Source: a virus. Taken from it: 64,000 bases of DNA. The DNA is taken from IMG/VR virus record IMGVR_UViG_3300009130_000011, positions 38,755 through 102,754 of that record, one strand, 5' to 3'. Every line of letters starts with the position of its first letter. The stretch's first letter is position 1. The translations under genes and the position numbers were made by a program. Shown here piece after piece: positions 10,066 through 59,472 of the stretch. The notes below the pieces were generated by a model that made no database searches, was not told the origin of the DNA, and worked only from the letters and a program-made list of their open reading frames with translations.

Positions 10066-10067
10066 GG

Positions 10068-22953: not shown

Positions 22954-23514
22954 TTATTTAAATATATTAAAAAATTCTTTTGGATGAATTAATTCTGAAT
23001 AAGGAAGGTTATACATGTCAACTTTTGTGGTAAAGTCATTGCTATTGTCCACATCTCCTTTCTTCCATAGTTTAGCTTTTTTAAAATACTCGTCTCTTTC
23101 CATGAAGCCACAAAACCATACGCTTAATGGGTTGTAATACTGCCTAGGATGTTCTTTTGTTGAGCGTTGAAAGGTTATACTTAAAAATAAGTAATAATTA
23201 GGTTGTTGGTGCTTGCTTGTGTCTGCTATAGAAGCATCGTAATAAGACTTAGGATTGGCAGTCCTGCGCTTAGTCTTTACTTCAAGATCAATCTCTGTAG
23301 AGCCTTTGTATTTTATTAAATCTCTGTCATATTTGGATCTACCAAGTTCGCAACTAACATTATTTGCCTTAATATGTTTTGCAATTGAAAACTCCCCTAA
23401 ATATCCAGCCCTATTACCCCCACCTTTAGTTATTGAATTATTTATTTCTCCAAGTTCTTCAGCCTTTTTTTTGGCTTCTGCGATCATTGCGTGAGTAAAT
23501 GGTATTTCAATCAT
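22954..23514 (-). CDS. PD-(D/E)XK nuclease-like protein
   Basis: A 186-residue protein. N-terminal GGGNRAGYLGEFSIAKHIKA, then KYDRDLIKYKGSTEIDLEVK followed by TKRR: the E...D...(x)ExK arrangement (Glu about 43, Asp about 64, Glu-x-Lys about 78-80) matches the catalytic core of PD-(D/E)XK nucleases. Tyr-rich C-terminal half. Probably a DNA endonuclease; target unknown. ATGA overlap with the upstream glycosyltransferase gene. Confidence 0.75.
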   Translation of the reverse strand: MIEIPFTHAMIAEAKKKAEELGEINNSITKGGGNRAGYLGEFSIAKHIKANNVSCELGRSKYDRDLIKYKGSTEIDLEVKTKRRTANPKSYYDASIADTSKHQQPNYYLFLSITFQRSTKEHPRQYYNPLSVWFCGFMERDEYFKKAKLWKKGDVDNSNDFTTKVDMYNLPYSELIHPKEFFNIFK

Positions 23515-24371
23515 AAATCTTTATGCCATGTCTGTAGGCTTTGGTGAATGAAGAAAGTATTCGGATGGTCTTCTGCTTTAACAGTAAAGGGTAGAAATCT
23601 TGACCAAGCTGCAGAAGCTGGGTTGTCATTATCAACTTTACTTAGATTTTTTGGATGAAAACTATCATAAACCACCCAAGGGTTTTCTTTGTCAATACTT
23701 GGAACTCTAGGCAGATTAACGCAGAACCAAGGAAATACATTAACTCCGTTTCCTGTTGCTAAATTTTCTGTTGCGTTTTTATACTTTATGTACGCTTCTC
23801 TTAGAAATCTTGGGCCAGTACTCCTTAATACGTTTTGGGTTTTAGGGTTCACATGAGGATTTGCTTTTAATTTTTTTTCTTGCTGAAATTGATAAGCTTG
23901 CAAACAAAAATGAACGAAAGGCCAAAACGGATCGCCTTTTGAAGAAACCATAATCCCGTTAAAAATTGTTTTTTGCAGGAAGAAAGCATTAGGGTATTCT
24001 TCAAAAAGAAATACTGATTTAGCACCTGCCCCAGATCTGTCGAGCGGCTGAATGACCCCTTTGTCTAGAAAATTAATCATTCTAGCAATGGGCTGAACTG
24101 CCTCCATGTCTAAGTCTAAATAAATGCCTCCATAGCGGTGCAAATAAAAATATCTGCAAGCATCAGCTTTTTGCACTGGCCATTTATAAGAATCATATGT
24201 GGGGAGAAACCAATTATAATGATCTTTAATTAAATTGTAATTATCTTCGTCGGACCAAAACTTATATTCAAAATTAGGATTAATTTTTAACAAGCGTTCG
24301 CGGTAAAGGCTTTCTTCTTTAGTTATTGAGTCTTCATCCTTCTGACTCTGGTGAATAATTTTTGGAATCAT
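23511..24371 (-). CDS. GT32-type glycosyltransferase
   Basis: A 286-residue protein. I start it at the ATG at 24371 (MIPKIIHQSQKDEDSITKEE), just beyond the IF-1 stop. It has the GT32 (Gly_transf_sug) blocks: IPKIIHQ, YKFWSDEDNYNLIKDHYNWF, VQKADACRYFYLHRYGGIYL and DLDMEAVQPI with the DxD catalytic motif. Enzymes of this family transfer sugars, often mannose or galactose, to surface polysaccharides. The C-terminus has VYDSFHPKNL and FFIHQSLQTWH. Confidence 0.88.
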   Translation of the reverse strand: MIPKIIHQSQKDEDSITKEESLYRERLLKINPNFEYKFWSDEDNYNLIKDHYNWFLPTYDSYKWPVQKADACRYFYLHRYGGIYLDLDMEAVQPIARMINFLDKGVIQPLDRSGAGAKSVFLFEEYPNAFFLQKTIFNGIMVSSKGDPFWPFVHFCLQAYQFQQEKKLKANPHVNPKTQNVLRSTGPRFLREAYIKYKNATENLATGNGVNVFPWFCVNLPRVPSIDKENPWVVYDSFHPKNLSKVDNDNPASAAWSRFLPFTVKAEDHPNTFFIHQSLQTWHKDL

Positions 24372-24372
24372 C

Positions 24373-24657
24373 TTATCTTTTTCTCGGGCCAAAACTTCTT
24401 TTTGGAGATTGTTTGTTTGAGACGGGGTTTCTGAGTCGATATATGATTCTGGCTTTGTCCAGATCTAAGGGGCTCATCTCCATCTTAACAAGATCGCCAA
24501 CAGTAATCTTAATAAAATGTTTTCTAAGTTTTCCAGATATGTGAGCTAAGACCTCATGACCATTTGAAAGCTCTGCGCGGAACATGGTGCTCGGTAGAAC
24601 TGCAGTTATTTTTCCCTCAACCTCCACCATCCCTTGACTTTTTTTATTCGGACTCAT
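24373..24657 (-). CDS. infA: Translation initiation factor IF-1
   Basis: A 94-residue protein whose residues 10-76 closely match bacterial IF-1: [66 protein letters not shown]. This single OB-fold binds the ribosomal A site during initiation. The usual protein is about 72 residues; here there is a nine-residue N-terminal addition and a basic 18-residue tail ([18 protein letters not shown]). The start overlaps the sigma factor gene by 14 bases. A phage-encoded IF-1 is unusual, and could adapt host ribosomes to phage mRNAs. Confidence 0.94.
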
Positions 24658-27434: not shown

Positions 27435-27600
27435 GATTATTTTTGACGAATTTTTCCGCTTCATCAAAAGCTTCTGGATGATATTTCTTGCACCATTTCA
27501 ATACCCATTCTTTAACATAGATATTAACTAAATCTTCTTTATCGAAATTAATCGAATACTTCCCGCATGGAGTTGGCTCTCTACGCTGTCTAACTCGCAT
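27424..27600 (-). CDS. Small unknown basic protein (58 aa)
   Basis: MRVRQRREPTPCGKYSINFD... then KEWVLKWCKKYHPEAFDEAE. Arg-rich N-terminus with a Cys, suggesting nucleic-acid contact. Overlaps the epimerase gene by 11 bases. Function unknown. Confidence 0.62.
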   Translation of the reverse strand: MRVRQRREPTPCGKYSINFDKEDLVNIYVKEWVLKWCKKYHPEAFDEAEKFVKNNLDN

Positions 27601-28414
27601 TGAAACACCTCTTCAACCCTTCTTCAATGCTTACCTTTGGTTCCCATCCTAAAGCTTTTAGCTCTGATATATCTGCAAGAGTATTTCTCGCATCACCTTT
27701 TCTCGCTGAAGCGTATTTCCAAGACACGCCTTTATTATGCTCGTCAATATAGTTTTTAATATAGTTCATTGATACGGCTTTTCCAGATCCAACATTAAAA
27801 TATTTTCCATTAAATTTTTGCTCGCTGTTCATCACAAAAATATTAGCAGATACAATATCCTCAACATGAACTAAGTCTCTGGTCTGTTCTCCGTCTCCGT
27901 CCATTCTTAATTGATCGCATTTCCTTATTTTTTCCATCCAAGCTGCAATTGCAGTAGTATAAGCTCCTCCATATGGCTGGTCTTCAGAATACGCATTAAA
28001 ATATCTCAAGCAAACTGTATCCATCCCATATAAGCGAGAATAAAGCTCACACTCCATCTCTGACATTAGTTTATGTAATCCGTAGGGAGATAAGGGAACT
28101 CCGTCTCCATGCCCCATAATTGCAGAAGAAGAAGAGAAAATAAACCTTTTTACCCCATGGTCTTTACTCCACTCTAGAAGTCTAGAGGTCGATAAAACAT
28201 TTTGTTTTAAAGTATAGCTCGGCGACTCTACAGACATTTCAACTCTGGGAAGCGCCGCAAAATGAAATACAAAATCGAAATCGCCGTCAGGTAATCGTTC
28301 ATTCAAATCTTCTCCATCTTTTAGGTCAATTCCTACTACAGGCTTACCTAGCATTTTAACTTTTTTGTATAGGTGTCCACCTATATACCCTTTATGGCCA
28401 GTTACTAATATCAT
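27590..28414 (-). CDS. NAD-dependent sugar epimerase/dehydratase
   Basis: A 274-residue extended short-chain dehydrogenase; start at the ATG at 28414 (MILVTGHKGYIGGHLYKKVK) with the glycine-rich TGxxGYIG nucleotide motif. The catalytic tyrosine motif is YGLHKLMSEMEC, and DGEQTRDLVHVEDIVSANIF is the family's substrate region. Most like GalE/WbpP-type UDP-sugar 4-epimerases. It would supply a modified UDP- or dTDP-sugar to glycosyltransferases here. Overlaps the lipoprotein gene by 23 bases. Confidence 0.88.
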   Translation of the reverse strand: MILVTGHKGYIGGHLYKKVKMLGKPVVGIDLKDGEDLNERLPDGDFDFVFHFAALPRVEMSVESPSYTLKQNVLSTSRLLEWSKDHGVKRFIFSSSSAIMGHGDGVPLSPYGLHKLMSEMECELYSRLYGMDTVCLRYFNAYSEDQPYGGAYTTAIAAWMEKIRKCDQLRMDGDGEQTRDLVHVEDIVSANIFVMNSEQKFNGKYFNVGSGKAVSMNYIKNYIDEHNKGVSWKYASARKGDARNTLADISELKALGWEPKVSIEEGLKRCFNAS

Positions 28415-28730
28415 TTTTTTTATTACTATTATATGGATAAAGCCAACCTCTGCCAGAATGAATTTCTTCTGTATCTGGAGGTTGTTCAAATTTTAAATTA
28501 AGAGACTCTACTATTTTATTCGCTTCCTCAGATTTTAGTGGAAGCATTTCTCCGTCAACCCACACTGCATAAGGTAAAGACCCATTAAGATTGAATGGAT
28601 GGGGCAATCGGTTTACTTCGACTACAGGCTCAACAGCAAGATTGGGAAAAGGTTCGATGTCCTTAGTCACGCTAGTAAAGCATCCAGACATAAAACTGAG
28701 GTATAAGAATAATCCCGCTTTTTTTATCAT
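28392..28730 (-). CDS. Putative lipoprotein (112 aa)
   Basis: Start at the ATG at 28730 (MIKKAGLFLYLSFMSGCFTS): Lys-rich start, hydrophobic stretch and FMSGC as lipobox, so Cys17 would be lipidated. The mature protein has a Pro-rich loop (VEVNRLPHPFNLNGSLP) and ends SNKKNDISNWP. It could be an outer-membrane-attached phage protein, for example for exclusion or release; nothing confirms this. Confidence 0.72.
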   Translation of the reverse strand: MIKKAGLFLYLSFMSGCFTSVTKDIEPFPNLAVEPVVEVNRLPHPFNLNGSLPYAVWVDGEMLPLKSEEANKIVESLNLKFEQPPDTEEIHSGRGWLYPYNSNKKNDISNWP

Positions 28731-30765: not shown

Positions 30766-31218
30766 TTATTTCCTGCTTTTTACAACTTTTTGATAGTACT
30801 CTTTGTCCCAGAAGCTATAGTAATTAGTTTTACTCAATCGATCTGCATATTTGTTTAATTCTGATAAAGGTTGTATAAAAAGGATTGCATATTCATTATT
30901 GCTGGTTTTTATGCCGTTAATTTTATTGATTTGATCGGGGTGATCCCAAATTAACCAAAGATCTCTATCCCTAGAATATTTCTCATGAATGGAGCAGAAC
31001 CAATCTAGCCAATCTATATCATATTTATCCTTATCTGCATACAATAGATAAAGCATTGGATGTTCTGTGTTACTCATGCATCTCACCGCATCTGCCCAGA
31101 TGTCAGCCGATTCTATTATTTCAATTTTATCGAGAAAAGGTTTTGCAAAAGGGCAAATTGCATGGCCTCCAAGCTCTTTTCTTTTTAGTGAAACATATTC
31201 TATGTAGTCATCAATCAT
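30766..31218 (-). CDS. Unknown protein (150 aa)
   Basis: MIDDYIEYVSLKRKELGGHA..., soluble with a Trp- and Asp-rich middle (YDIDWLDWFCSIHEKYSRDR) and a Tyr-rich end (TNYYSFWDKEYYQKVVKSR). ATGA overlap links it to the transferase-like gene upstream. No family was recognised; the context suggests work with the same substrate. Confidence 0.72.
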   Translation of the reverse strand: MIDDYIEYVSLKRKELGGHAICPFAKPFLDKIEIIESADIWADAVRCMSNTEHPMLYLLYADKDKYDIDWLDWFCSIHEKYSRDRDLWLIWDHPDQINKINGIKTSNNEYAILFIQPLSELNKYADRLSKTNYYSFWDKEYYQKVVKSRK

Positions 31219-31991
31219 TTAAAAAAATTTTTGTCATCATGCCTTTTTATTTTATCTAGGTCTTTTGTTTTTTCTATTTTTGAATCTCTCTCGCATAAAA
31301 ACTTGTAATGTTCTATATCATTAGACCATTCTGCGCCCGTCCAAAATTCAAACCCAGAATAGTCTGACTTATATATGCAGCAATTTTCATAACCCATTCC
31401 TAGATACATATAATCCTTGCTATGGTCAATGCAATAATCTATCTCTGCCAAATTAGCATATTTGCCTAGATATAGTTTTGGATTTTCATAATCCCATGCG
31501 AACTGAGTAGAGAAAACACTATTCGAGCCAACGTCTCTTAGGAAAGTAAATGCAATGGGCGATCCGTCTACATAATAAAGAATAAAATATTTTTTATACT
31601 TTTCCCTTTTGATTAAAGGTTTTAAATCCCAGCTTTTAAAACCTCTATACTTAGTATATTTCTCAAATATGGAAGCTAGAATATTCAAATTAATGTCATC
31701 CGCTTGGACCACCTCCGTTGTCACCTCTTTGCATTTTTTTCTAGCTTTCTTTGTTCTCCTAGTGTCTTTAAATAAACTTAAATCAATTCTTGTTTGTCTG
31801 GCTTGATACCAATCTGACTTGTCCTCTTCAAAAACATTAGATATCGTCTTGGGTTCCGAATAATCATCGGGCAGCCAACCTTCTTGTAGAGCTATATCTT
31901 CTTCATGTTCTCCGACCTTAGCCATGCAATCAAAAAATAAATAATCATGTTCTGCTATGGCTCCCGAATAATGCCTAAAGTAAACCCTCAT
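31215..31991 (-). CDS. Aminoacyl-tRNA-protein transferase-like (GNAT fold) protein
   Basis: A 258-residue protein resembling arginyl/leucyl-tRNA-protein transferases. N-terminal ALQEGWLPDDYSEP corresponds to the GWxxxxxxYxP block and DWYQARQTRIDL to the SxSQRR region, without the usual N-terminal Cys cluster. C-terminally, SVFSTQFAWDYENPKLYLGK, CIDHSKDYMYLGMGYENCCI and YKSDYSGFEFWTG align with the SLGxY...YLGYW...YKxxFxPxE region of the GNAT-like domain. Family members add Arg or Leu to protein N-termini to mark them for degradation. Here a different acyl donor or substrate is possible. ATGA overlap with the SpeD-like gene. Confidence 0.7.
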   Translation of the reverse strand: MRVYFRHYSGAIAEHDYLFFDCMAKVGEHEEDIALQEGWLPDDYSEPKTISNVFEEDKSDWYQARQTRIDLSLFKDTRRTKKARKKCKEVTTEVVQADDINLNILASIFEKYTKYRGFKSWDLKPLIKREKYKKYFILYYVDGSPIAFTFLRDVGSNSVFSTQFAWDYENPKLYLGKYANLAEIDYCIDHSKDYMYLGMGYENCCIYKSDYSGFEFWTGAEWSNDIEHYKFLCERDSKIEKTKDLDKIKRHDDKNFFK

Positions 31992-32392
31992 GCCAAGTCT
32001 TCGTCAAACATTCTCCAGTCTTTTGTGTTTTCGATTTCTCTGTCAAGAAATTTGCAACCCAAAGATAGAGGCTTGAATTTATTTAATTCATCTAAAACAG
32101 AGTTTCGGTCGAATTTCTTGCAGCTATAAACATCAAGTTGGACTAAATTTGGATTAGACTTTTCCCAAGAATGTAAACTTATATGGCTAGTTGTAATAAG
32201 GCAAAATGCACTTATGCCTTCATTGCCTTTTTTGTCGCACCCCACCGCTTTGGGTGGACAAAGCATTTCCATGCCTATCTTTTTGACCAATCTCTTAATC
32301 CAAGATTCAGTAAAATCGACACAAACAAAAGGTGTCTTTTCAAAAGTCGCGTTTACTAATAAATGTTTATGTTTTAATCTTTTATCTTCCAT
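31988..32392 (-). CDS. SpeD-like pyruvoyl decarboxylase homolog
   Basis: A 134-residue homolog of prokaryotic S-adenosylmethionine decarboxylase. The core ITTSHISLHSWEKSNPNLVQ then LDVYSCKKFD aligns with the family block SESHLTIHSFPE...DVYTC, keeping the Ser cleavage/pyruvoyl site, the His and the Cys. The residue before the Ser is Thr where SpeD has Glu, and the usual Pro is missing. Some SpeD relatives have become ornithine or arginine decarboxylases, which is a plausible alternative. A more canonical SpeD is at 46704-47117. Co-transcribed with the transferase-like gene. Confidence 0.8.
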   Translation of the reverse strand: MEDKRLKHKHLLVNATFEKTPFVCVDFTESWIKRLVKKIGMEMLCPPKAVGCDKKGNEGISAFCLITTSHISLHSWEKSNPNLVQLDVYSCKKFDRNSVLDELNKFKPLSLGCKFLDREIENTKDWRMFDEDLA

Positions 32393-32599: not shown

Positions 32600-33832
32600 T
32601 TACTTGCTCGGAATCTCCATCAAGCGGAGATCGTCTATAATTTTTTTGTTAAGGTCTGATTCTTTGGCTGAAGGATCAGAAATTAAACTATATATTAACC
32701 CACCAATAAAAGCAAGTGCAAAAATGCCTACAACCACCCACGCTATATTGTTTTTCCAAAAGGAAGGCTTTCGTGGTGAAGGAGGGGGTTTTACAGGCGA
32801 GGGTTTTGGCTTTAAAGGCGGAGGCGAAGGAGGCTCGGGCTTTGGCTCGGGCTTTGGCTCGGGCTTTGGCTCGGGCTTTGGCTCGGGCTTTGGCTCGGGC
32901 TTTGGCTCGGGCTTTGACTCTCCTTCTGTGATCATTTTTTTAACATCTATAACTCCGTAACCCCAATCATTGTCTCTACCTATAGTGCCTTTATCATTGG
33001 TATATTTTAGCAAATGCTCTTTAACTTGAGCTACTGTTTTGCAATCGTTTTTCCCTGTTTCTTTTTCTTGCTTTCTATGTTTGGAGATCATTAGAGCAAT
33101 AACTCCAGCGATAAAGGGGCAAGCCATTGAGGTTCCACTAAGCGATGCATAAGAATTATTCAAAAAAGTGCTAGATATATTAGAGCCGGGCGCTGCCCAG
33201 TCTACTTCTGGACCACGGGAGGAAAAAGAGGATACTCTTCCATATTTGTCATAGGCTGCAACAGCTATAGTAGATTCAAAGGCTGCTGGATAATTTACCC
33301 CGCCAGACCCAGAATTACCAGCCGCGCAAACGACAGGAATGTGCATATCATTGGTTAATTGTTTTATAATTTTTTCCATTTTTGGAGATGGAGTTGAGCC
33401 GCCAAGAGACATAGATATAATATCTGGCTTGAGTCGTTTTGCAGCCTGAAGCGCATTGACTAAACCTTCATAGCTACCTGAACCACTTTTGCTTAAAGCT
33501 TTTATACATATACATTTAGCTTTAGGCGCTACACCTACATAACCTTTTTTATTGTTCTTTGCGCAGATTATTCCTACGCAATGAGTTTGGTGTCCGTTAT
33601 AGTCAAAAATGTCTTCTCCTTGTATGAAATTTTCGCCTTCTATTGCGTTATCTCCTATGTCTTCGTGATCAGGCATGCCTGTATCTATCACGACAATAGT
33701 TACTCCTTCTCCTTGAGTTACTTTCCAAGTGTCTGGAATATTCTGATATTTCAAACTCCAGTCAAGAGATTGAGAAAGCGAAGTGAAGACCTCTTCGACT
33801 TTAAAGTCTGGGAGGAAGGTTTTCTTTTTCAT
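32600..33832 (-). CDS. Membrane-anchored subtilisin-like serine protease
   Basis: A 410-residue S8 peptidase. The triad is clear: Asp in VTIVVIDTGMPDHED (about 50), His in YNGHQTHCVGI (about 84), Ser in LSGTSMACPF (about 233), with oxyanion Asn in CAAGNSG. There is no N-terminal signal peptide or propeptide. After the catalytic domain come seven PEPK repeats, a Pro/Lys-rich linker and a C-terminal transmembrane helix (WVVVGIFALAFIGGLIYSLI), so the enzyme is predicted to face the cytoplasm on the inner membrane. Phage-borne subtilases with this layout are unusual. Substrate unknown. Confidence 0.92.
   Translation of the reverse strand: MKKKTFLPDFKVEEVFTSLSQSLDWSLKYQNIPDTWKVTQGEGVTIVVIDTGMPDHEDIGDNAIEGENFIQGEDIFDYNGHQTHCVGIICAKNNKKGYVGVAPKAKCICIKALSKSGSGSYEGLVNALQAAKRLKPDIISMSLGGSTPSPKMEKIIKQLTNDMHIPVVCAAGNSGSGGVNYPAAFESTIAVAAYDKYGRVSSFSSRGPEVDWAAPGSNISSTFLNNSYASLSGTSMACPFIAGVIALMISKHRKQEKETGKNDCKTVAQVKEHLLKYTNDKGTIGRDNDWGYGVIDVKKMITEGESKPEPKPEPKPEPKPEPKPEPKPEPKPEPPSPPPLKPKPSPVKPPPSPRKPSFWKNNIAWVVVGIFALAFIGGLIYSLISDPSAKESDLNKKIIDDLRLMEIPSK
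32832..32915. repeat. 12-base tandem repeat, seven units
   Basis: Seven consecutive ggctcgggcttt units (minus strand encodes Lys-Pro-Glu-Pro repeats) forming the linker between subtilase and membrane helix. The near-perfect copies suggest recent expansion. Confidence 0.9.
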
Positions 33833-34156: not shown

Positions 34157-35671
34157 CTAGTAATTCTTGGATTCTATAATCTCTTTACAGCTTACATTGT
34201 TCATCTCCATAGACTTATGAAAATCTTTTTCCATGGCTTTTGATAGATTAAGCTCCTCTTCTTCAAGGCTGGTATTGTATCCAGCATAATGAATTAAGAA
34301 ATCTCCATTTTTGTAAGCTTTGTCTCCTTTGTGGGCTATATTTTTAGGGTAACTGTTGATTAGGGACTGGTCAACTATCTTTACATGTTTTTTAAAATCA
34401 GTCTCATGAATCATATAAGATAAAGCGGGTTGGTCTTGATATCCTACATATTTATATTGACCTCCAAGTAGGTCTCGCCACCTGTTTAGATAGTAGTACA
34501 TTATTTGACTCCCTCCTTTAATTAAAACATTGCCACTGTTTATTCCATTGCGATCTTTTGTGATTAACATAAGTTTCTCTTCTGTAAATTCTTTCGCTAA
34601 CTCTTCAAGGTTAAAATCAAAATTCATAATACAAACATCTGCGTCGCTCAAAAAAAGAAGATTATATTTATGATAGTTTTCTATCAAGCAATCTACTTTA
34701 ACCCAGCCGGGGCGCTTATTTGGGTCTTGAATTTTTTCGTATTCTTTTTTTCTGGGGATGATTAATTCGTATTTATTTCTTTTGCAATAAATGTTTTTAG
34801 ATATCATGCCAAGCCTAACTTGACTGTCGTAGGCATCTCCAATGATGGGGGTTATTATGCCAGTTTTTTGGAAGTATTTGGACATTGAAATATCAAATTT
34901 GTTAAAACTAACTTTTCCCATGCGCCTGTGCGCTGGACCGCCCATTTTGATAGGATCTCCTCTATAATGGTGGTACCTTGCAACTTCAAAAGGTACCGCA
35001 ATGCTCTCTACGCATTCGCCCCCTATACTGTGTACATCGCAAATGTCATTACCGTCTCTAAATTTGATGCCCTTAATCATAGATTTAAATTGAGTCAAAT
35101 GATCGTAGCCCCAGTCGAATATTTTTCTAACCGATTTTTCTTTAACCCTTTTATTGAAGACTCTCTGAGGAAATTCTAATCTTAAGCTGTGGTTAGAATC
35201 TGGCTGATCTGATAAAAAACTTTTTATATTCTTATGTTTATTTAAAAATAAAAATTCATCTACATCCATGAATAGCCACCAATCCGAATAGTTATTTTCC
35301 GCGCAATTTTTGTAACCAGTAATTTGTGATTCTGGATATGCAGTAGAATGATCTTTGCCATATATCCAAGATTTTAAAAAAACTTTGCCTTTGTACTCTT
35401 CGAGTATTTTATTAAGTTGTTTTAGCGCTTCTTCAGAAGTAAGTTCTAAACAATATTCTGCGTCTGGTTTTTTTGCCCACTTAATATTTTTTTCTTGCCT
35501 TGATAATTCTCTAGCTCCAGCCTGTAGATATTCATCGCTATCAGAGGGAGCGTCGCCGTTATTGTAGATATAGATTTTATCTACCCCAAGACTTAGGTGA
35601 TGCTCAATCCATTCTTCGATGAATGGAAGCTCCATCCTTGGGATTAGCAGCGTATAGAGGGAAACATTCAC
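34157..35671 (-). CDS. Two-domain glycosyltransferase (GT92-like plus GT34-like)
   Basis: A 504-residue protein with two sugar-transferase domains. The N-terminal half begins MNVSLYTLLIPRMELPFIEE and has DWWLFMDVDEFLFLNKH (about 130-146, D-x-D) and HYRGDP, as in GT92/GT2-type enzymes. The C-terminal half has LLFLSDADVCIMNFDF (D-x-D about 342-344), DRNGINSGNVLIKGGSQIMY and DQPALSYMI, then SLINSYPKNIAHKGDKAYKN, as in the GT34 galactosyl/mannosyltransferase family. The fusion suggests two successive linkages made by one protein. It opens the sulfotransferase island. Confidence 0.82.
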   Translation of the reverse strand: MNVSLYTLLIPRMELPFIEEWIEHHLSLGVDKIYIYNNGDAPSDSDEYLQAGARELSRQEKNIKWAKKPDAEYCLELTSEEALKQLNKILEEYKGKVFLKSWIYGKDHSTAYPESQITGYKNCAENNYSDWWLFMDVDEFLFLNKHKNIKSFLSDQPDSNHSLRLEFPQRVFNKRVKEKSVRKIFDWGYDHLTQFKSMIKGIKFRDGNDICDVHSIGGECVESIAVPFEVARYHHYRGDPIKMGGPAHRRMGKVSFNKFDISMSKYFQKTGIITPIIGDAYDSQVRLGMISKNIYCKRNKYELIIPRKKEYEKIQDPNKRPGWVKVDCLIENYHKYNLLFLSDADVCIMNFDFNLEELAKEFTEEKLMLITKDRNGINSGNVLIKGGSQIMYYYLNRWRDLLGGQYKYVGYQDQPALSYMIHETDFKKHVKIVDQSLINSYPKNIAHKGDKAYKNGDFLIHYAGYNTSLEEEELNLSKAMEKDFHKSMEMNNVSCKEIIESKNY

Positions 35672-35675
35672 GCTA

Positions 35676-36497
35676 TTAAAGGGTTTTTATACTAAAGGCT
35701 TTTTTCACCCAAAATCCGCATTCATTTTTTGTCGAAAGGTCAATGTCTAAGGCGCGTGCGCTTCCTGAGTGCTGTTCATCGTGAGTGCAGTTATATACCG
35801 CAGCACGAAAGGGAATACTCTCGCCTTTGTAGCCTTTTTTACTAAAATATTGAAATGATTTTTGGTGTGCTCCAATAATATTATATAAATAGAACTTTGT
35901 TGTTGAGTTTATTATATCTTCCTGAGAGCAATTTAAATTAATCTCGTTAAAATTTATTTCTTTTTTTAGTATATTTAGTTTTGTTATATTAGAAGTTCCG
36001 CATGTCGCCGAAAAATTATTCATATCGGATAATTTATTTTGCTTCAAAAGCTTGTAGCCTTTTTTAACTTTTAAAAAATCTTTTTTAGAATTGTTGACAT
36101 ATCTTGCAAGTTTTTTATGAATAAAATCATCCGCGTCGACAAACATAACATAATGATTTTCTTTGTTTGCTTTTTGAATTTGACTTAAAGCAAGTGCGTA
36201 CTTCGTTCCTCTGTCCTTCTTGATTTGACTCATGCCTACACCGGGCTCGACTTGACGATGGCATTGCCAAGAATCAGTAGGCGCAGGCGGCGCCCAGTTT
36301 ACTTCAAGGAATCTTACATTTTTAATTTTTGGATGATTAGAAAAGTCATTTAATGTTTTGTTAGATACAACGATGACATTGAAATTTTTATCTGTTTGGT
36401 TGCAAACAGAAACAAGGGTGTTTTCCAAAAGTTTCCATGTTGTGTCATATGAATGACAATTTTTGTAATGTTTGACGGATATAATAAAAGTTATCAT
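35676..36497 (-). CDS. GT2-like glycosyltransferase
   Basis: A 273-residue protein with MITFIISVKHYKNCHSYDTT as nucleotide-sugar-binding start, VIVVSNKTLNDFSNHPKIKN, and HYVMFVDADDFIHKKLARYV with DADD as the catalytic aspartates. The C-terminal part (CTHDEQHSGSARALDIDLST) is uncommon. Part of the sulfotransferase island; four bases after the GT92/GT34 gene. Substrate unknown. Confidence 0.8.
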   Translation of the reverse strand: MITFIISVKHYKNCHSYDTTWKLLENTLVSVCNQTDKNFNVIVVSNKTLNDFSNHPKIKNVRFLEVNWAPPAPTDSWQCHRQVEPGVGMSQIKKDRGTKYALALSQIQKANKENHYVMFVDADDFIHKKLARYVNNSKKDFLKVKKGYKLLKQNKLSDMNNFSATCGTSNITKLNILKKEINFNEINLNCSQEDIINSTTKFYLYNIIGAHQKSFQYFSKKGYKGESIPFRAAVYNCTHDEQHSGSARALDIDLSTKNECGFWVKKAFSIKTL

Positions 36498-36500
36498 TTG

Positions 36501-37082
36501 TTATTCTCCAAATTTGTAACTGAAATACTCGATATCTTTTGCGTATTTTTCAGCAACGATTTGACGAGTTTCGTCATCATAATATTCAGTATAGTGTTTA
36601 TGTTTTGATTTGTTTTCATGAGGAAGTTTTTGGTATGGTATTCCGATTTTGTCGCAGATGGTGTTGAAGTCTTCTTGGAGGTTTTCAAATCTTCCGATGA
36701 AATCAACCAAGCAATTCCCACCATCATCTAAAATCCAAGGTAATTGTATGGGGTTAAACTTAACTGCAATACCTTTTTTATTTATATATCCACTTTCAGG
36801 ACACGATTGAAATGCTAAAATAAACTCACGAAATGTTAAGTTATATTTTCCATTTTTATTTCTTTGTATATAAAAATATTGAGATACCATTTTATCCCAC
36901 GGGTTTCTTACAAAAGTAAACTTAAAATAGTTGTTCCATTTTTTATTGTCTACTTCTTTTTTGTAATTTTTTGCAAATTTATGAATTCTCCCTTCTTGGC
37001 TTCCATGGAAAAATTTTACAATAGACGAACCACCCGTTTTAATGATGTGAATAAATATACATTTATGTTTATGACTTATCAT
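36501..37082 (-). CDS. PAPS-dependent sulfotransferase, copy A
   Basis: A 193-residue Sulfotransfer_2-type protein. The 5'-phosphosulfate-binding loop is IHIIKTGGSSIVKF (about residues 10-23) and the 3'-phosphate site is FTFVRNPWDKMVSQYFYIQR (about 55-74). It ends FENLQEDFNTICDKIGIPYQ, KHKHYTEYYDDETRQIVAEK and FGE. These last 60 residues are almost identical in copies B and C, so the three arose by duplication. The family moves sulfate from PAPS to carbohydrate hydroxyls. Shorter than eukaryotic members. No PAPS-making gene is in the window. Confidence 0.9.
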   Translation of the reverse strand: MISHKHKCIFIHIIKTGGSSIVKFFHGSQEGRIHKFAKNYKKEVDNKKWNNYFKFTFVRNPWDKMVSQYFYIQRNKNGKYNLTFREFILAFQSCPESGYINKKGIAVKFNPIQLPWILDDGGNCLVDFIGRFENLQEDFNTICDKIGIPYQKLPHENKSKHKHYTEYYDDETRQIVAEKYAKDIEYFSYKFGE

Positions 37083-37085
37083 TTC

Positions 37086-37751
37086 TCATTCTCCAAATTT
37101 GTATCCGAAATACTCGATGTCTTTTGCGTATTTTTCCGCAATGATTGCTCTCGTTTCGTCGTCGTAGTATTCGGTGTAGTGTTTATGTTTGCTTTTGTTT
37201 TTGCGTGGAAGTTTCTGATGAGGTATTCCAATTTTGTCACAGACGATATCAAAGTCTTCTTGAAGGTTTTCAAATCTACCGATGTAGTCGGGTATTTGAG
37301 TTCCATCTTTTCGGAAAAGTTGATTGAATGGATTGAAGTATGGAGCGCAGTGATTTTGAACGGACTTTTTATACTGATCCTCGATGTATTCTTTCTGCTT
37401 TTCATTCGTAAATTCAGACTCCCATAGACGTAATAATTCTATCTGCGAAATATCTTCAGGGTCTACATCAAGCGCGAATCTTGTAAATTTTGAAAAGCTA
37501 ATATTTTTAACCCACCTCGGCTTCCTCCAACTGTTAAACATTGAATAACTTGAAACTATCCTGTCCCAAGGATTTCTTACGAATGAAAACTTGAAAAAGT
37601 CTGCATATTTATCATCACTAGAAAAACCACCATCGATAACTCTATTTACGCTATCTATTTTCACGCCAAATTTCGCCACCACATTTCCGACGCTACTTCC
37701 TGCGCATTTTGCCGTGTGAATAAAAATACATTTTTCTTTTTTATTTTTCAT
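37086..37751 (-). CDS. PAPS-dependent sulfotransferase, copy B
   Basis: A 221-residue paralog with MKNKKEKCIFIHTAKCAGSS as the 5'-phosphosulfate loop, SFVRNPWDRIVSSYSMF as the 3'-phosphate site, and the conserved C-terminal block KHKHYTEYYDDETRAIIAEK. Central part (FTRFALDVDPEDISQIELLR) differs from copy A, consistent with a different acceptor. Three bases separate it from copy A. Confidence 0.9.
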   Translation of the reverse strand: MKNKKEKCIFIHTAKCAGSSVGNVVAKFGVKIDSVNRVIDGGFSSDDKYADFFKFSFVRNPWDRIVSSYSMFNSWRKPRWVKNISFSKFTRFALDVDPEDISQIELLRLWESEFTNEKQKEYIEDQYKKSVQNHCAPYFNPFNQLFRKDGTQIPDYIGRFENLQEDFDIVCDKIGIPHQKLPRKNKSKHKHYTEYYDDETRAIIAEKYAKDIEYFGYKFGE

Positions 37752-37754
37752 TTG

Positions 37755-38345
37755 TTATTCTCCAAATTTGTAACCGAAACACTCAATGTCTTTTGCATAT
37801 TTGTGAGCGATAAAATTGCGAGTTTCATCGTCGTAGCATTCGGTATAATGTTGATGCTTGCTGCTGTTTTCGCGAGAGAGTCTTTGGCGCGCAACTCCAA
37901 TTTTGTCACAAACAGTATCGAAATCTTCTTGAAGGTTCTCCGTTTTGCCTACGAAATCCATTTGATTTTTTCCGTCAATTTCTATGTAGTCAAACATGGG
38001 TTGAAAATGCATATATTCAAAAAAAGGAGCTTCAAAAACAAATTGTTCAAAAGAATTGTAGCTTTCGATTTTTTGTTTTAAAGAAAGATCTTGCTTATTG
38101 CCGAAACCCCCGGCTTTTAAGTAAGAATATGCGCTTAAAAACCTATCCCACGGGTTTCTGACAAATGTAAATTTAAAATACTTTGGCTTGCGAGCAATAT
38201 CCCCTTCTATACTGTCAACGTATTTTGCGTCTTTAATTTTACTATGGTCTCCGGGGAATCTAGGAATGCCCAGACACGGCTTAATAGAATTGCCTGCGCA
38301 TTTGGGAATATGAATAAAAATAAATTTGTTTTTATGGTGAATCAT
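37755..38345 (-). CDS. PAPS-dependent sulfotransferase, copy C
   Basis: A 196-residue paralog: MIHHKNKFIFIHIPKCAGNS as the 5' loop, FTFVRNPWDRFLSAYSYLKA as the 3' site, and the shared end SKHQHYTECYDDETRNFIAH. Overlaps the pyrophosphatase gene by 14 bases. Likely the same glycan pathway with a different acceptor. Confidence 0.9.
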   Translation of the reverse strand: MIHHKNKFIFIHIPKCAGNSIKPCLGIPRFPGDHSKIKDAKYVDSIEGDIARKPKYFKFTFVRNPWDRFLSAYSYLKAGGFGNKQDLSLKQKIESYNSFEQFVFEAPFFEYMHFQPMFDYIEIDGKNQMDFVGKTENLQEDFDTVCDKIGVARQRLSRENSSKHQHYTECYDDETRNFIAHKYAKDIECFGYKFGE

Positions 38346-38841
38346 TTTTAATACTTTCGTTTATAATTTGATATGCCATTTCTTTTTCGTGCCAATCAAA
38401 CACTTCAACCTTTTTCCCATTTAAATCTTTGTAATGCTGAAAGAAATTAGAACAAATTTTTAAGAATAAAGAGTTTACATCTTCTAGGCATGTATATTTG
38501 TTTACATGACAGGTGGGCGTAGCTAAAATTTTATAATCTTTCATACCATCGTCTTCCATGTCGAGCGCACCTATAGGAGTACACTCTACGAGAGTACCCC
38601 TGTCTATTGGGGAGTGATTGTATACCAAAACATCTAATGCATCTCCGTCTCCTCCAAGCGTATTTGGTATAAACCCGTAACTGCAAGGATACATAAAAGC
38701 AGAGGTTAAGCTTCTGTCATAAAAGAAAACTCCTAACTCGTTGTCGTATTCATACTTTGCGTTAGTGCCTTTAGGTATTTCTATAATACAGTTAATGATT
38801 TTTGGGGATTCTTTATGAATCGGTAAATTATATAAATTCAT
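38332..38841 (-). CDS. ppa: Inorganic pyrophosphatase (family I)
   Basis: A 169-residue soluble pyrophosphatase. Signature parts: INCIIEIPKGTNAKYEYD (substrate Lys), YPCSYGFIPNTLGGDGDALD with the metal-binding DGDALDVLV, and DDGMKDYKILATPTCHVNKY. All main acidic ligands appear present. The enzyme hydrolyses PPi, driving reactions that make nucleotide sugars or PAPS. Its position between sulfotransferase copies supports a role in supplying activated sulfate or sugars, though a host-like role in nucleic-acid synthesis is equally valid. Confidence 0.93.
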   Translation of the reverse strand: MNLYNLPIHKESPKIINCIIEIPKGTNAKYEYDNELGVFFYDRSLTSAFMYPCSYGFIPNTLGGDGDALDVLVYNHSPIDRGTLVECTPIGALDMEDDGMKDYKILATPTCHVNKYTCLEDVNSLFLKICSNFFQHYKDLNGKKVEVFDWHEKEMAYQIINESIKNDSP

Positions 38842-38847
38842 TTTGTT

Positions 38848-39642
38848 TTAGATTATTTTGTTATGCCACAGCCCTATACCCCTGAAGAATGACTCAAGGT
38901 GATAAGGGGTGTCGTATAGTTTCAAAGTTTTAAATCCAGAATAAGGAGGGATTGGGTGAGATATAAAGCATTCTGAAATATTTTGATTGTGTCTGTTGAT
39001 AACTTTTTGCTTTAAAAGCCTAACGCTCAGATCCCCGCAAATAAAATCTTCTGCTTCTTGTATAGAGCGCTCATCTTTAACGACATGAATTAAAGTTTCT
39101 TGCTCGTCAAGGAGTCTAAAATTGAATGCAATTTGATCATCAAAAGCTCCTGACTTATGAAGTTTTGGGCGTTCCAGTATAGATTTAAAAAGTTTTATAG
39201 TTTTTTCGTTTGATCGTACACAAATCCAGCCCATGCATATTGAGCAGTGAAATTTTTTAAAAAATCTAGTATAATTTGGCATATTGCCCACAGATGCTAT
39301 TACATCATAACCTTCAATTATATAGTCTTTAGGATTTTTAAGCCAAACTGCGTCTAAATCTGAGTGAATAATATTTTTTCCTGAATCAATTAATCTTAAA
39401 AGCTCCTTAAAGCGCGCTCCCCAATCAGCTTTAAATCCATCAGAAAAAATTTCTTTTTTAAGAATTTTAGTTTTTATATTATGATCGATTAGGTAATCAT
39501 TTATTTCGTCATCCATACAAATAACTGAATAGTTTTCAATTCCGAGGTCTTCTAAATGAAGCGCCCAATTTAAGGCGATGCGTTTAAAGCGCCCGTCCCC
39601 AAAGCCAACTATCTCAAAATCATCTATCAAATTAGAACTCAT
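38848..39642 (-). CDS. GT77-type nucleotide-sugar transferase
   Basis: A 264-residue protein with GFGDGRFKRIALNWALHLED, SGKNIIHSDLDAVWLKNPKD (D-x-D about residues 94-96), HCSICMGWICVRSNEKTIKL and SGAFDDQIAFNFRLLDEQET: the Nucleotid_trans (PF03407) block order. Such proteins add sugars such as galactose or xylose. It lies in the sulfotransferase island, so it likely builds the acceptor chain. Confidence 0.82.
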   Translation of the reverse strand: MSSNLIDDFEIVGFGDGRFKRIALNWALHLEDLGIENYSVICMDDEINDYLIDHNIKTKILKKEIFSDGFKADWGARFKELLRLIDSGKNIIHSDLDAVWLKNPKDYIIEGYDVIASVGNMPNYTRFFKKFHCSICMGWICVRSNEKTIKLFKSILERPKLHKSGAFDDQIAFNFRLLDEQETLIHVVKDERSIQEAEDFICGDLSVRLLKQKVINRHNQNISECFISHPIPPYSGFKTLKLYDTPYHLESFFRGIGLWHNKII

Positions 39643-40249
39643 ATTTTAAATGCTCTATATCTTTAGAGTAGTAATCTTGAACTATTGCCCGAGTCTCATC
39701 TGTATAGTGTTCTCTATAATCTTTGTGGTCGCTAGAATTTTTGTTGGGAATTTTAGAATAAGGGATGCCTATTTTTGAGCAGAGAAGCTCCCAGTCTGAG
39801 TTAAAACTCTCAATTTTTCCAATGAAATCAATGTGCTTCAGGTCTTTTTCTAGAATTAAATCTCCAACTATCTTACGAAAATGAATGTAATTGCATCCAC
39901 GCAGTTGATCTTTTACAAAATCAGTAAACTTTGTATCTGGAAGATTGTTATCTTTACAAAATTTTGAATCCATCTTATTGCCCCCTCCAGACTTTAGGTA
40001 AAAAAAAGCGCTAACCAGTCTATCAAAAGGGTTTCTGACAAAAGTAAATATTTTGTAGGAATCTTTGTTTATGTAAATTTCTTGCCCGCACGGCCTAATT
40101 AGATAGTAGTCATCCATTATGACTCTAAGCCTAGGGTGGCCCAACCCCATTTTTTCTTCGTCTCTATATGGCTCAAGAACTGAGCGCAAGGAAGTTCCTG
40201 CGCATTTTGGTAAATGAAGGAAGGCAAATTTTTTTGAGTGGCTAATCAT
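39632..40249 (-). CDS. PAPS-dependent sulfotransferase, copy D
   Basis: A 205-residue sulfotransferase: KKFAFLHLPKCAGTSLRSVL as the 5' loop and IFTFVRNPFDRLVSAFFYLK as the 3' site. C-terminal block DETRAIVQDYYSKDIEHLKY aligns with copies A-C but is clearly more divergent at DNA level. Overlaps the GT77 gene by 11 bases. Confidence 0.9.
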   Translation of the reverse strand: MISHSKKFAFLHLPKCAGTSLRSVLEPYRDEEKMGLGHPRLRVIMDDYYLIRPCGQEIYINKDSYKIFTFVRNPFDRLVSAFFYLKSGGGNKMDSKFCKDNNLPDTKFTDFVKDQLRGCNYIHFRKIVGDLILEKDLKHIDFIGKIESFNSDWELLCSKIGIPYSKIPNKNSSDHKDYREHYTDETRAIVQDYYSKDIEHLKYEF

Positions 40250-40250
40250 A

Positions 40251-40922
40251 TTAAAAAGAATATTTTAAAAAATCTATATCACATTCATATATTTTTTCTA
40301 CAAGCCTTTTGTCAGAAAGAGAATATATGTCTCTATAAAATGTGTCGTGGCTCTTGTTTGAATGAGGGAGTTTGCTAGATGGCGTGCCTATCATGTTGCA
40401 AACAAAATCAAAATCTTCTTGAAAACTGTCTAGCCTACCTACAAAATCAACCAAAAGATTTGGACCTTCAAAAATAAAATCACATTGAGGTTGAAATTGA
40501 ACATGATCCGGCGATGATATTATCGCATTAAGGTAATCTGTAAAGCCAAACTCGCCATTATCTGGAAGACTCATCCATTCGCATAAGTCAGGCCTGTGAT
40601 TTTTTGTATAAAAAAATTGAGATACTGCTCGCTGATATGGATTTCTAGCAAAACAAAATTTAAAATAAGAATCAAAAATATCTTTTTCTATAGCTTTTTT
40701 TATAGTTTTTGCAGGCAGATGTTGCATCCCGCCGGTAATGCCATATTGATTTCTGAAGCCGAGTCCCGATAGGCAATACTCTGGATTTTTACCCTCGCCA
40801 ATACCCATCCAAAAATTTTCGGTAATGCGATCTTCTTCTGGGAATAAAAGATCTTCAATGCTAGTGCCTCCACATTTTGGGATGTGGATAAAAATAGAAT
40901 TGTATTTATTTAGCAGGGGCAT
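40251..40922 (-). CDS. PAPS-dependent sulfotransferase, copy E
   Basis: A 223-residue, most divergent member: NSIFIHIPKCGGTSIEDLLF as the 5' loop and FKFCFARNPYQRAVSQFFYT as the 3' site. The middle has PDHVQFQPQCDFIFEGPN and the end SNKSHDTFYRDIYSLSDKRL. First gene of the island in transcription order after the 159-residue gene. Starts two bases after copy D ends. Confidence 0.88.
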   Translation of the reverse strand: MPLLNKYNSIFIHIPKCGGTSIEDLLFPEEDRITENFWMGIGEGKNPEYCLSGLGFRNQYGITGGMQHLPAKTIKKAIEKDIFDSYFKFCFARNPYQRAVSQFFYTKNHRPDLCEWMSLPDNGEFGFTDYLNAIISSPDHVQFQPQCDFIFEGPNLLVDFVGRLDSFQEDFDFVCNMIGTPSSKLPHSNKSHDTFYRDIYSLSDKRLVEKIYECDIDFLKYSF

Positions 40923-40923
40923 T

Positions 40924-41403
40924 TTAGAATAAGTCTTCTAGATCTTCTAAACTAATGGACTCCCCAGCCTCATCTGAGAGATCGTCCAATGACTTTCTAA
41001 AATTTGCTATCGAGCTTTCACTAAACCCGTAAAAGGTTATTTCCCAAAGCAAATGAGCAAGCGCTTCTGCGTCACAAATTTGCGCTTTCTTATTAACTTC
41101 GACATCTATAAGGTCTTCCCAGAGTACCAAATCTATTGCGAAAGTATCTTTACTTTCTTGTAGGCAAACATCAATAAAGCTCTCACTTAGGTCGTCTTCT
41201 GGGTCGCTTGGAAACTCTCTAATTAAAATTTTATAATCTTTTTTTAAATTTAAATCTTTTTTAAGAAGGTTATTCCATACGTCAAGGTATGCTACATCAA
41301 ATTTTTCAACCTCGCTTGAATCTCTATCCTTATAGTAGATTTTATAGAGAAAATTAAAAACATTTTTGTATACATTTGAATTGATTAGCTCTCGTAGTGT
41401 CAT
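40924..41403 (-). CDS. Unknown acidic protein (159 aa)
   Basis: A 159-residue acidic protein, MTLRELINSNVYKNVFNFLY..., with KIYYKDRDSSEVEKFDVAYL and a helical acidic end (LDDLSDEAGESISLEDLEDL). It begins the operon leading into the sulfotransferase island, two bases before copy E. No family recognised; it could be a helper of the pathway or unrelated. Confidence 0.7.
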   Translation of the reverse strand: MTLRELINSNVYKNVFNFLYKIYYKDRDSSEVEKFDVAYLDVWNNLLKKDLNLKKDYKILIREFPSDPEDDLSESFIDVCLQESKDTFAIDLVLWEDLIDVEVNKKAQICDAEALAHLLWEITFYGFSESSIANFRKSLDDLSDEAGESISLEDLEDLF

Positions 41404-58281: not shown

Positions 58282-59472
58282 TTATTTAATGTTGAATAGT
58301 TTATAATGTGGAGCCCACTCCCAAAATAAATCTTGATTTAGTATTTCAATACCTCCGTTGAGACCTCTTGAGTCTGCGGCTGGCATTGGAATTTCTTCTT
58401 TTTGGTGAGCTTCGCTTGCATACTTATTTTGATTGGAGAATATAACTCTCGATGTTTTAAAGAGAGTAGTATCGCATATTTTCTCTGGTTTGTCAACACA
58501 TTTTTTAGAATATTTTTCTAAAGACAATACTTGCCAGTCAAAATAGTGCATCCTATAGGAAGATATTAGATCTTCATCTTCAGTCTTGAGTTCGAATGGA
58601 ATTCCGGCAGTCTGTAGAATCTTTAAGTAATCTATTGGAATTTTAACTTGCTGCCCAGATATAATAAAAATAATTTTTTTAATATTATTTTTAAAAGGAA
58701 AAATTGTTGCAAGATCTATCTGTTCTTTCGCAATAATATCACATTTACAGTAACTCAACCAAGAAGCTAAATTATTTGAGCTGTGATGCTTGTCCATTCT
58801 GACGCGGAGTTCAGAGCCAGAAAAATGTGCATTAGGTAAAAAATTTGGGATAACGTCAATGCTAACTTTGCCAAAATTAGAGCCTACATAAAAACAATCT
58901 AAATCATTTAAGTTATGATTTATGTTTAATAAATTTAAACCTTCGGACGCAATGTCGTCTGGGCAAATCATGTTGATCGTTTTAGGTGATTCATTATTTG
59001 AATAGCTCGGTTTTAAGCCCTTCCTGTCACTTTCCAGCAAGACTGTAGTTGAGTCGTCTCTCCAATAGGGCGCAGAGTGTTGTTTGTACATATTGGAATA
59101 AAGCCCTACGATAGGAACTTTAAAGTGGGAGGCAAGGTGTATTGGTAGGCTATCTATACCAATATGCAATGAGCTTTTTGAAAGAACATACGCAAGTTGC
59201 TTTAGATTTGTTTTTCCTCTCAAGTCCTTGCAATAAGGAACTAGCGGATCGTCTTTCATTCCAACTTGAAAAATAGAAATCCCTTCTTCCTTTAAAAAAG
59301 GCAGCATAGAGGAGACTGCATCACCAAAATAGTCATAGTTCCTAGATTCAAACTTTGCACTATTGTGAATTGTAATATACTTATCAACACCAGTTGGATA
59401 AAAAAGTGTTTCTATATGCGGTTTACCTATTTTTAGGCCGCAACTCAAGGCATACTGTTCTAAGATGTGCAT
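58282..59472 (-). CDS. GT9-type C-terminal half plus extra domain
   Basis: A 396-residue protein. Residues 1-180 hold the nucleotide-sugar half of GT9/heptosyltransferases: YITIHNSAKFESRNYDYFGD, LRGKTNLKQLAYVLSKSSLH, IGIDSLPIHLASHFKVPIVG (D-S-x-P-x-H-L-A). The N-terminal acceptor half is absent but exists as the end of the next upstream gene (59460-61373). The C-terminal 200 residues (VGSNFGKVSIDVIPNFLPNA onward) match no family I know. The split could be a two-protein enzyme. Confidence 0.78.
   Translation of the reverse strand: MHILEQYALSCGLKIGKPHIETLFYPTGVDKYITIHNSAKFESRNYDYFGDAVSSMLPFLKEEGISIFQVGMKDDPLVPYCKDLRGKTNLKQLAYVLSKSSLHIGIDSLPIHLASHFKVPIVGLYSNMYKQHSAPYWRDDSTTVLLESDRKGLKPSYSNNESPKTINMICPDDIASEGLNLLNINHNLNDLDCFYVGSNFGKVSIDVIPNFLPNAHFSGSELRVRMDKHHSSNNLASWLSYCKCDIIAKEQIDLATIFPFKNNIKKIIFIISGQQVKIPIDYLKILQTAGIPFELKTEDEDLISSYRMHYFDWQVLSLEKYSKKCVDKPEKICDTTLFKTSRVIFSNQNKYASEAHQKEEIPMPAADSRGLNGGIEILNQDLFWEWAPHYKLFNIK

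Follow-up and report, generated by a model that had tools for sequence, protein, structure and literature searches.

The 102.7-kb IMG/VR record of a marine virus, a tailed phage as indicated by the presence of TerL, carries an island of sulfotransferase (ST) and glycosyltransferase (GT) genes, which is probably a glycan sulfation island diversified by cassettes; the variable sulfated glycans that it would provide are most likely located on virions. The island was analyzed in a window of 64,000 nucleotides (positions 38,755 to 102,754 of record IMGVR_UViG_3300009130_000011), in which it occupies positions 34157-40922 on the minus strand. It is among the fastest-changing spots in the genome, as judged by the comparison with one sister phage.

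Gene content and layout of the island

The island contains five PF03567 ST genes, a GT92/GT34-type fusion, a GT2, a PF03407 gene, and a pyrophosphatase gene (Table 1). All five ST genes were intact open reading frames on the minus strand, where the sequence-only reading had placed them, and its naming of a GT92/GT34 fusion, a GT2, a GT77, and a pyrophosphatase among the STs agreed with matches to PF13704/PF01697 plus PF05637, PF00535, PF03407, and PF00719, respectively. Because the intergenic spacing was 6 nt at most and went down to overlaps, the island looks like one operon. Scans for promoters and terminators gave a signal no better than chance, and no transmembrane segments were predicted by hydropathy in the island proteins. 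The glycan gene set of this phage reaches past the island.

Table 1. Features of the island and further genes of the phage (window coordinates; “sister” is the identity to the copy in the sister phage)
Feature	Position	Strand	Evidence and remarks
DUF6557 protein, directly upstream of ST5	40924..41403	-	PF20194, 58 bits
ST5, Sulfotransfer_2, 223 aa	40251..40922	-	PF03567, 46 bits; PHROG 3347; sister 82%
ST4 sulfotransferase, 205 aa	39632..40249	-	PF03567, 65 bits; sister 91%
PF03407 Nucleotid_trans (GT77-type) glycosyltransferase, 264 aa	38848..39642	-	64 bits; sister 92%
Inorganic pyrophosphatase, 169 aa	38332..38841	-	PF00719, 164 bits; sister 96%
ST3 sulfotransferase, 196 aa	37755..38345	-	PF03567, 69 bits; sister 65%; model pLDDT 92.1
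ST2 sulfotransferase, 221 aa	37086..37751	-	PF03567, 54 bits; without candidate catalytic His34
ST1 sulfotransferase, 193 aa	36501..37082	-	PF03567, 58 bits
GT2-type glycosyltransferase, 273 aa	35676..36497	-	PF00535, 25.7 bits (cut-off 23.3); no sister copy
GT fusion, N-terminal GT2_4/GT92 type, C-terminal GT34	34157..35671	-	PF13704, PF01697, PF05637; sister 97%
Conserved 3' module of ST3	37755..37958	-	Repeat family; sister cross-matches
Conserved 3' module of ST2	37086..37283	-	Repeat family; sister cross-matches
Conserved 3' module of ST1, about the last 67 codons	36501..36704	-	Repeat family D1; 75-81% to sister ST 3' ends
GGAGAA, last two codons of ST3, proposed Shine-Dalgarno for ST2	37758..37763	-	Sequence and GGA enrichment
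GGAGAA, end of ST2, proposed Shine-Dalgarno for ST1	37089..37094	-	Sequence and GGA enrichment
GGAGAA, end of ST1, proposed Shine-Dalgarno for GT2	36504..36509	-	Sequence and GGA enrichment
GT4-type transferase, weak DUF4214 match, 637 aa	59460..61373	-	PF00534, phrog_2170; glycan gene outside island
GT9 (heptosyltransferase-type)	58282..59472	-	PF01075; glycan gene outside island
NDP-sugar epimerase/dehydratase	27590..28489	-	PF01370, PF16363; glycan gene outside island
DXD-type glycosyltransferase	23511..24392	-	PF04488, 71 bits; glycan gene outside island

Relatives of the DUF6557 gene are also located just upstream of a pyrophosphatase gene in other viral loci (L031, L047, L067, L076). A dedicated helper role of the pyrophosphatase in sulfation was considered; the link was not established, with its relatives adjoining DUF6557 in other viruses. 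Two of the six pyrophosphatase loci, both on short contigs, were devoid of an ST gene.

Predicted PAPS-dependent carbohydrate sulfotransferases

The five ST genes are predicted to encode PAPS-dependent carbohydrate sulfotransferases. Their products scored 46 to 69 bits with the PF03567 Sulfotransfer_2 profile (cut-off 22; E 1e-11 to 1e-18), and all matched PHROG 3347, “Galactose-3-O-sulfotransferase.” A profile search that could have given these proteins another identity thus confirmed them as STs. The record had no match to the PF00685 profile because the STs belong to PF03567. A conserved histidine, His34, which we take from family knowledge to be the candidate catalytic base, is present in 157 of 178 viral homologues and aligned in ST1, ST3, ST4, and ST5. 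Lysine K15, G18, and S20 of the 5' PAPS loop and R63, N64, P65, and S71 of the 3' phosphate motif were aligned in 5/5 STs, so that the intact PAPS loops proposed earlier were indeed found; ST2 lacks the candidate catalytic histidine. The 3' phosphate-binding motif of Sulfotransfer_2 is PxxRxxS (PMC11625862); it is exact in ST2 to ST5, and ST1 has a lysine at the arginine of the motif, with R63 and S71 being invariant.

A PDB sequence search with one ST returned no relative at E<0.01, and a search with the ST alignment returned a single weak match (E 0.36). The top PDB fold matches of the predicted ST3 structure were sulfotransferases, including heparan-sulfate 6-O-, 2-O-, and N-sulfotransferases, with a probability of 0.99 but an E value of only 4e-3 and TM values of 0.45-0.53. 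Compared to named viral sulfotransferases, the model reached an E value of 6e-10.

PAPS supply and host

ATP sulfurylase (PF01747), APS kinase (PF01583), and a CysQ-type phosphatase for PAP removal (PF00459) were absent from the record in profile searches with working controls. The description of the island as a “whole sulfation set” was therefore too strong, and, with no genes for PAPS synthesis in the record, PAPS must come from the host. The host is uncultivated, and its placement in the PVC superphylum is plausible, since DUF1501 and PSCyt2/PSD1 genes are present in the phage. The DUF1501 gene was up to 53% identical to genes from samples of both Verrucomicrobiota and Planctomycetota, so that this comparison, tried as a phylum test, did not separate the two; the host phylum suggested at first is plausible at the level of the superphylum.

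Hypervariability between sister phages

The sister phage (L003/G001) is collinear with this phage over about 103 kb at a DNA identity of about 88%, and the median coverage-weighted identity of 64 genes of at least 150 aa was 90%. The GT2 gene has no counterpart in the sister, and the coverage-weighted identities of ST2, ST1, and ST3 were 42%, 49%, and 65%, which places the replaced genes ST1, ST2, and GT2 among the most divergent of the genome. In ST1 and ST2, the 5' two thirds were replaced relative to the sister; only the 3' part of about 200 nt aligned, any-to-any. A scan for further sister phages by two flanking genes yielded L003 only. This hypervariability of the island is new here, and it suggests continual alteration by these viruses of a coat of sulfated sugars. 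The sequence-only reading had pointed out neither the hypervariability nor the mosaic genes and the putative ribosome-binding sites inside them.

Mosaic sulfotransferase genes

The ST genes have a mosaic structure, in which about 67 codons at the 3' end keep 75-85% DNA identity while the remainder is replaced. The 3' modules of ST2 and ST1 share 85% amino acid identity versus 25% in the N part, and the 3' part of about 200 nt is common to ST paralogues and across phages. In an unrelated pair of phages, L006 and L048, the alignment extended to position 10050, was followed by an unaligned stretch at 10051-10367, and resumed for the last 225 nt or so at 81%, with the breakpoint being the same as between the phage and its sister. 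Mosaicism with one breakpoint in unrelated phage pairs is, as read from these alignments, apparently a new observation.

Part of the 3' conservation must be due to fold constraint, and Y167, Y171, D186, and Y192 in the C-terminal part are conserved across the family. These residues, together with the confounded tests of tree incongruence, are consistent with strong purifying selection on the C-terminal third without any recombination, which we regard as improbable as the whole explanation of the mosaic. In pairs with similar C parts, the synonymous codon identity was raised in the C part only (0.64-0.67 versus 0.49-0.51 expected; N part, 0.50-0.51 versus 0.47-0.48 expected), and this points to a younger common ancestry of the 3' module. 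Independent phage pairs have one common place at which the DNA alignment breaks off abruptly, and some ST orthologues show the opposite pattern, with 0.79 in the N part and 0.60-0.64 in the C part. The rank correlation between N and C parts was 0.24, that within a part 0.39-0.40. The AU test of N/C incongruence was extreme, but it also gave rejection in odd/even-column controls of one region, the N half, and is thus confounded. The case for recombination is therefore built on the codon identity, the alignment breaks, and the rank correlation. A simple tandem duplication is not supported as the origin of the arrays: the nearest relative was in the same array for just 11 of 160 viral STs.

The conserved ST 3' end encodes FGE followed by a stop, with GGAGAA as the Gly-Glu codons. 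This terminus was found in 59 of 176 viral versus 6 of 86 bacterial STs. The terminal glycine was encoded by GGA in 51/59 cases versus 35% internally (p = 3e-14, overstated because the sequences are related). The conserved ST 3' end thus may double as the putative Shine-Dalgarno sequence of the next gene, which is also new here.

Proposed function and alternatives

In the proposed mechanism, a glycan would be built or extended in the infected cell by soluble GTs, after which several STs of family PF03567, whose activity and regiospecificity we infer, would put sulfate on it using host PAPS. That the island has several STs suggests more than one acceptor site or sugar. A phage structural protein would be the most likely carrier of the glycan. 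Cassette exchange would replace whole ST and GT genes and also the 5' two thirds of an ST gene with the candidate catalytic histidine, the 3'-phosphate loop, and the variable substrate region, while the 3' part would stay common. If GGAGAA serves as the ribosome-binding site for the gene that follows, cassettes could be exchanged with the operon left intact. The selective reason may be escape from recognition by the host or by competitors.

Alternatively, the island could remodel the host surface (LPS, capsule, or a sulfated exopolymer) and thereby block superinfection or aid release instead of decorating virions, which is rather unlikely but the strongest of the other functions. Bacterial ST homologues are widespread, related viral islands have Caps_synth, GT25, and NodZ neighbours, and Pontiella of the Verrucomicrobiota makes sulfated glycosaminoglycan-like exopolymers (PMC7356697). 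No multi-transmembrane flippase, polymerase, or initiating transferase was evident by hydropathy, which argues against such remodeling, but the enzymes could still use host lipid-linked precursors in the cytoplasm. We know of no sulfated DNA glycan, the STs match carbohydrate-sulfotransferase families, and a thymidylate-synthase-type hydroxymethylase (PF00303) was absent from the record in the profile search; shielding of the phage DNA from nucleases by GT- and ST-dependent modification is thus highly improbable, despite the numerous soluble GTs and the virus GTs that, as referred to in PMC12619734, hypermodify DNA (Pyle 2024). Just as improbable is a metabolic function in which the STs would sulfate small metabolites to store sulfur or for detoxification. 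Viromics papers usually file phage STs as auxiliary metabolic genes (PMC12285232, PMC8290583), but the consistent GT neighbours, the carbohydrate-ST families, the array structure, and the hypervariability are ill-suited to this function.

Virion decoration is the preferred reading. The array, the hypervariability between sisters, and the architecture of the cassettes speak for an arms race over recognition and against a metabolic role. The function of sulfotransferases in phage genomes was described as unclear in 2023 (PMC10580990), and these three features make the question testable. Marine phages may, as a tentative proposal, share recombinational ST diversification by a variable 5' specificity module and a common 3' module bearing the ribosome-binding site of the next cassette. 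If true, such a shared system would let populations generate ever-new sulfated glycan coats, a role comparable to that of variable surface antigen cassettes. The islands would also be a source of numerous carbohydrate sulfotransferases of compact size (about 200 aa), and the natural ST chimeras could help to map which part determines substrate choice.

Occurrence and comparison with known systems

Multi-ST islands recur in IMG/VR, with 21 records containing 2 to 11 ST matches each, and are rare around bacterial ST homologues. ST3 matched just 2 of 50,697 phage records, at one place in each. The island was earlier called unusual, which holds for isolates but not for uncultivated viruses. A search of a literature library for multi-sulfotransferase phage islands found none. 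Elsewhere, viral STs have many kinds of GT neighbours, including GT47, GT10, GT11, GT90, Fringe, and Caps_synth, and relatives of GT2 (55-56%) directly follow an ST pair in L009/L008.

Single STs are known in phages. Annotated examples of the same family or fold come from Stenotrophomonas phage DLP6, cyanophages, Ralstonia phage phiRSL1, and Roseobacter phage SIO1 (gp5.1); these and PHROG 3347 differ in that no cultivated phage with a comparable array was found among the 50,697 phage records. With PF03567 Sulfotransfer_2 of the HS2ST or chondroitin sulfotransferase type, the viral proteins share the profile score, the PSB lysine, the PxxRxxS-type loop, and the fold match, but they are short (190-225 aa), soluble, several per genome, and exchanged in their 5' parts. 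The cluster for a GAG-like exopolymer in the PVC bacterium Pontiella sulfatireligans likewise has a sulfotransferase among GT2/GT4 genes; it is cellular, however, and its STs were reported with PF13469 and not PF03567 (PMC7356697). Virion glycosylation by phages is known, and in the mycobacteriophage example, as far as it is referred to in PMC12619734 (Freeman 2023), the GTs are likewise phage-encoded and the virion is the target; the island described here adds sulfation and arrays of paralogues to this, with a virion target that we infer.

Identity of the island sulfotransferases

The island at 34157-40922 contains five sulfotransferase (ST) genes, ST1 to ST5, and their enzyme family is secure. 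All five products exceeded the cut-off of PF03567, matched PHROG 3347 and kept the lysine of the PAPS loop as well as the phosphate-loop R/S pair, so that the five sulfotransferases with intact PAPS loops proposed in the sequence-only reading held up. A 105-sequence AlphaFold model of ST3 reached a pLDDT of 92, and its best PDB folds were sulfotransferases, including heparan-sulfate 6-O-, 2-O- and N-sulfotransferases, at modest statistics (E 4e-3, TM about 0.5); the match to named viral sulfotransferases was stronger than that to those in the PDB. A histidine present in 157 of 178 viral homologues is taken to be the candidate catalytic base. It is missing from ST2 and from several of its nearest relatives (viral loci L059, L007, L046 and L076), which may use another base or have an altered function.

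Gene arrangement and proposed embedded ribosome-binding site

The window spans bases 38755-102754 of an IMG/VR virus record of 102,754 bp, whose remainder (L001/L002) was read as well. The record encodes a tailed-phage terminase large subunit, an rIIA homologue, a DNA ligase, a clamp-loader-like ATPase and sigma-factor-like proteins. Almost every gene (162 of 184 kept ORFs) is on the minus strand. From 40922 down to 34157, the island on this strand reads ST5, ST4, PF03407 transferase, pyrophosphatase, ST3, ST2, ST1, GT2 and a GT2_4/GT92-GT34 fusion (GT, glycosyltransferase), with junctions ranging from 6-nt gaps at the widest down to overlap. No promoter or terminator signal exceeded chance in the island, and no transmembrane segments were predicted in its proteins.

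Features of the phage record outside and inside the island (window positions unless prefixed)
Feature	Position	Strand	Remark
ST1	36501-37082	−
ST2	37086-37751	−
ST3	37755-38345	−
ST4	39632-40249	−
ST5	40251-40922	−
GT29 (sialyltransferase-type) + methyltransferase fusion	L001 (remainder of record):12572-13678	+	In sister, GT29 half alone conserved (92%)
Contig-end protein	62024-63457
Variable-locus protein	44654-45322	−	222 aa, signal-like N-terminus, possibly outer-membrane type
DUF1501 protein	47695-48966	−
PSCyt2/PSD1 (DUF1549/DUF1553) protein	48978-51005	−
tmRNA	51031-51428	−	RF00023, 135 bits; predicted tag of 31 residues, basic
AdoMet decarboxylase	31988-32392	−	Possible phage polyamine pathway, with next
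Spermidine-synthase-type protein	45918-46703	−
ATE_C match (arginyl-tRNA-protein transferase C-terminal)	31215-31991	−	Close relative in viral locus L065
phrog_8420 endonuclease-family paralogue	9030-10028	−
phrog_8420 endonuclease-family paralogue	52879-53922	−	Matches UV-endonuclease UvdE
Subtilisin-like protease	32600-33832	−	Proline-rich PEPKPEPK repeat, hydrophobic C-terminal segment

The 3' ends of ST1 to ST3, each proposed to act as ribosome-binding site for the gene that follows, consist of AAATTTGGAGAA and the stop codon; 3 bases further on comes the ATG of the next gene. A GE terminus occurs in 59 of 176 viral STs; 88% of these 59 have a Shine-Dalgarno (SD)-like string in the final codons and 73% an ATG at most 9 nt from the stop. 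The penultimate glycine is encoded by GGA in 51 of the 59 genes compared to 185 of 524 internal glycines (p = 3e-14, overstated through shared descent), a codon choice that points to selection on the DNA sequence itself.

Hypervariability and mosaic genes

Sister phage G001 is collinear along its whole length, with 88% DNA identity in the alignable 87% of the genome and a median coverage-weighted identity of 90% for 64 genes encoding 150 aa or more. Among the lowest-scoring of these were ST2 (42%), ST1 (49%) and the island GT2, which is absent from the sister; ST3 reached 65% and the remaining island genes 82-97%. Elsewhere, low values were found for the contig-end protein (30%, with the gene perhaps truncated by the sister contig end), the protein at the left window edge (45%) and the GT29-methyltransferase fusion (48%), and the gene at 44654 has no sister counterpart, making this another variable locus.

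In the exchanged region, ST1 and ST2 were alignable over the last ~200 nt only, where their 3' ends match those of all three sister STs there at 75-85%. Residue identity between ST1 and ST2 is 85% in the last ~67 codons (“C part”) versus 25% in the 5' two thirds (“N part”). In an unrelated group (L006/L048), the flanking genes are shared at ~81%, and the DNA alignment of the corresponding ST is lost near codon 17 and regained over the final ~225 nt. Where two STs have similar C parts, 0.64-0.67 of synonymous codons agreed there versus 0.49-0.51 expected, while the N parts of such pairs were near saturation. Uneven protein constraint would not easily confine the excess to the C part; a common ancestor of the 3' segments that is younger than that of the N parts could. 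Topology tests for mosaicism were set aside because split-half controls gave rejections too, and tandem duplication was discarded as the source of the arrays, the nearest relative being in the same locus for only 11 of 160 STs. Judged from sequence, the island thus appears, with good support, to be composed of hypervariable, mosaic, translationally coupled cassettes.

Host and possible function

A DUF1501 plus PSCyt2/PSD1 pair, as carried by this phage, is a hallmark of the PVC superphylum, which includes Verrucomicrobiota and Planctomycetota. Of 21 ST-rich virus records, 10 contain DUF1501 (this phage and 9 others), and together with the pair this points to a PVC host; the best DUF1501 identity, 53%, came from samples of both phyla and does not separate them. 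Glycan sulfation is the likely function of the island. APS kinase, ATP sulfurylase and PF00459 phosphatase are all absent from the record, so PAPS would be supplied by the host. Further sugar-related genes outside the island encode a GT4-type enzyme (weak DUF4214 match), a GT9, a DXD-type GT, an NDP-sugar epimerase/dehydratase, an FkbM methyltransferase and the GT29 fusion. Decoration of the virion is the preferred reading, and decoration of the host surface the chief alternative; a Verrucomicrobiota genus makes a sulfated GAG-like exopolymer (PMC7356697), so sulfated glycans are plausible in PVC hosts. A role in DNA modification is disfavoured since no thymidylate-synthase-type hydroxymethylase was found in the record.

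Occurrence of multi-sulfotransferase loci

In IMG/VR, 286 confirmed stretches encode an ST relative. After removal of near-duplicates, at least two STs within about 8 kb were present in 49 of 63 viral loci and at least three in 27, versus 13 and 2 of 79 bacterial and archaeal genome-contig loci, a contrast that is indicative, as loci were chosen by likeness to the present STs and some genome contigs are possibly viral. Whole virus records (n = 21) had 2-11 PF03567 matches, median 6, whereby a single gene can yield two. Numerous GT kinds and sugar enzymes are encoded beside viral STs. Among annotated phage genomes, ST3 was matched in two records only; sulfotransferases of phages, with a function termed unclear, are as such already known (PMC10580990).
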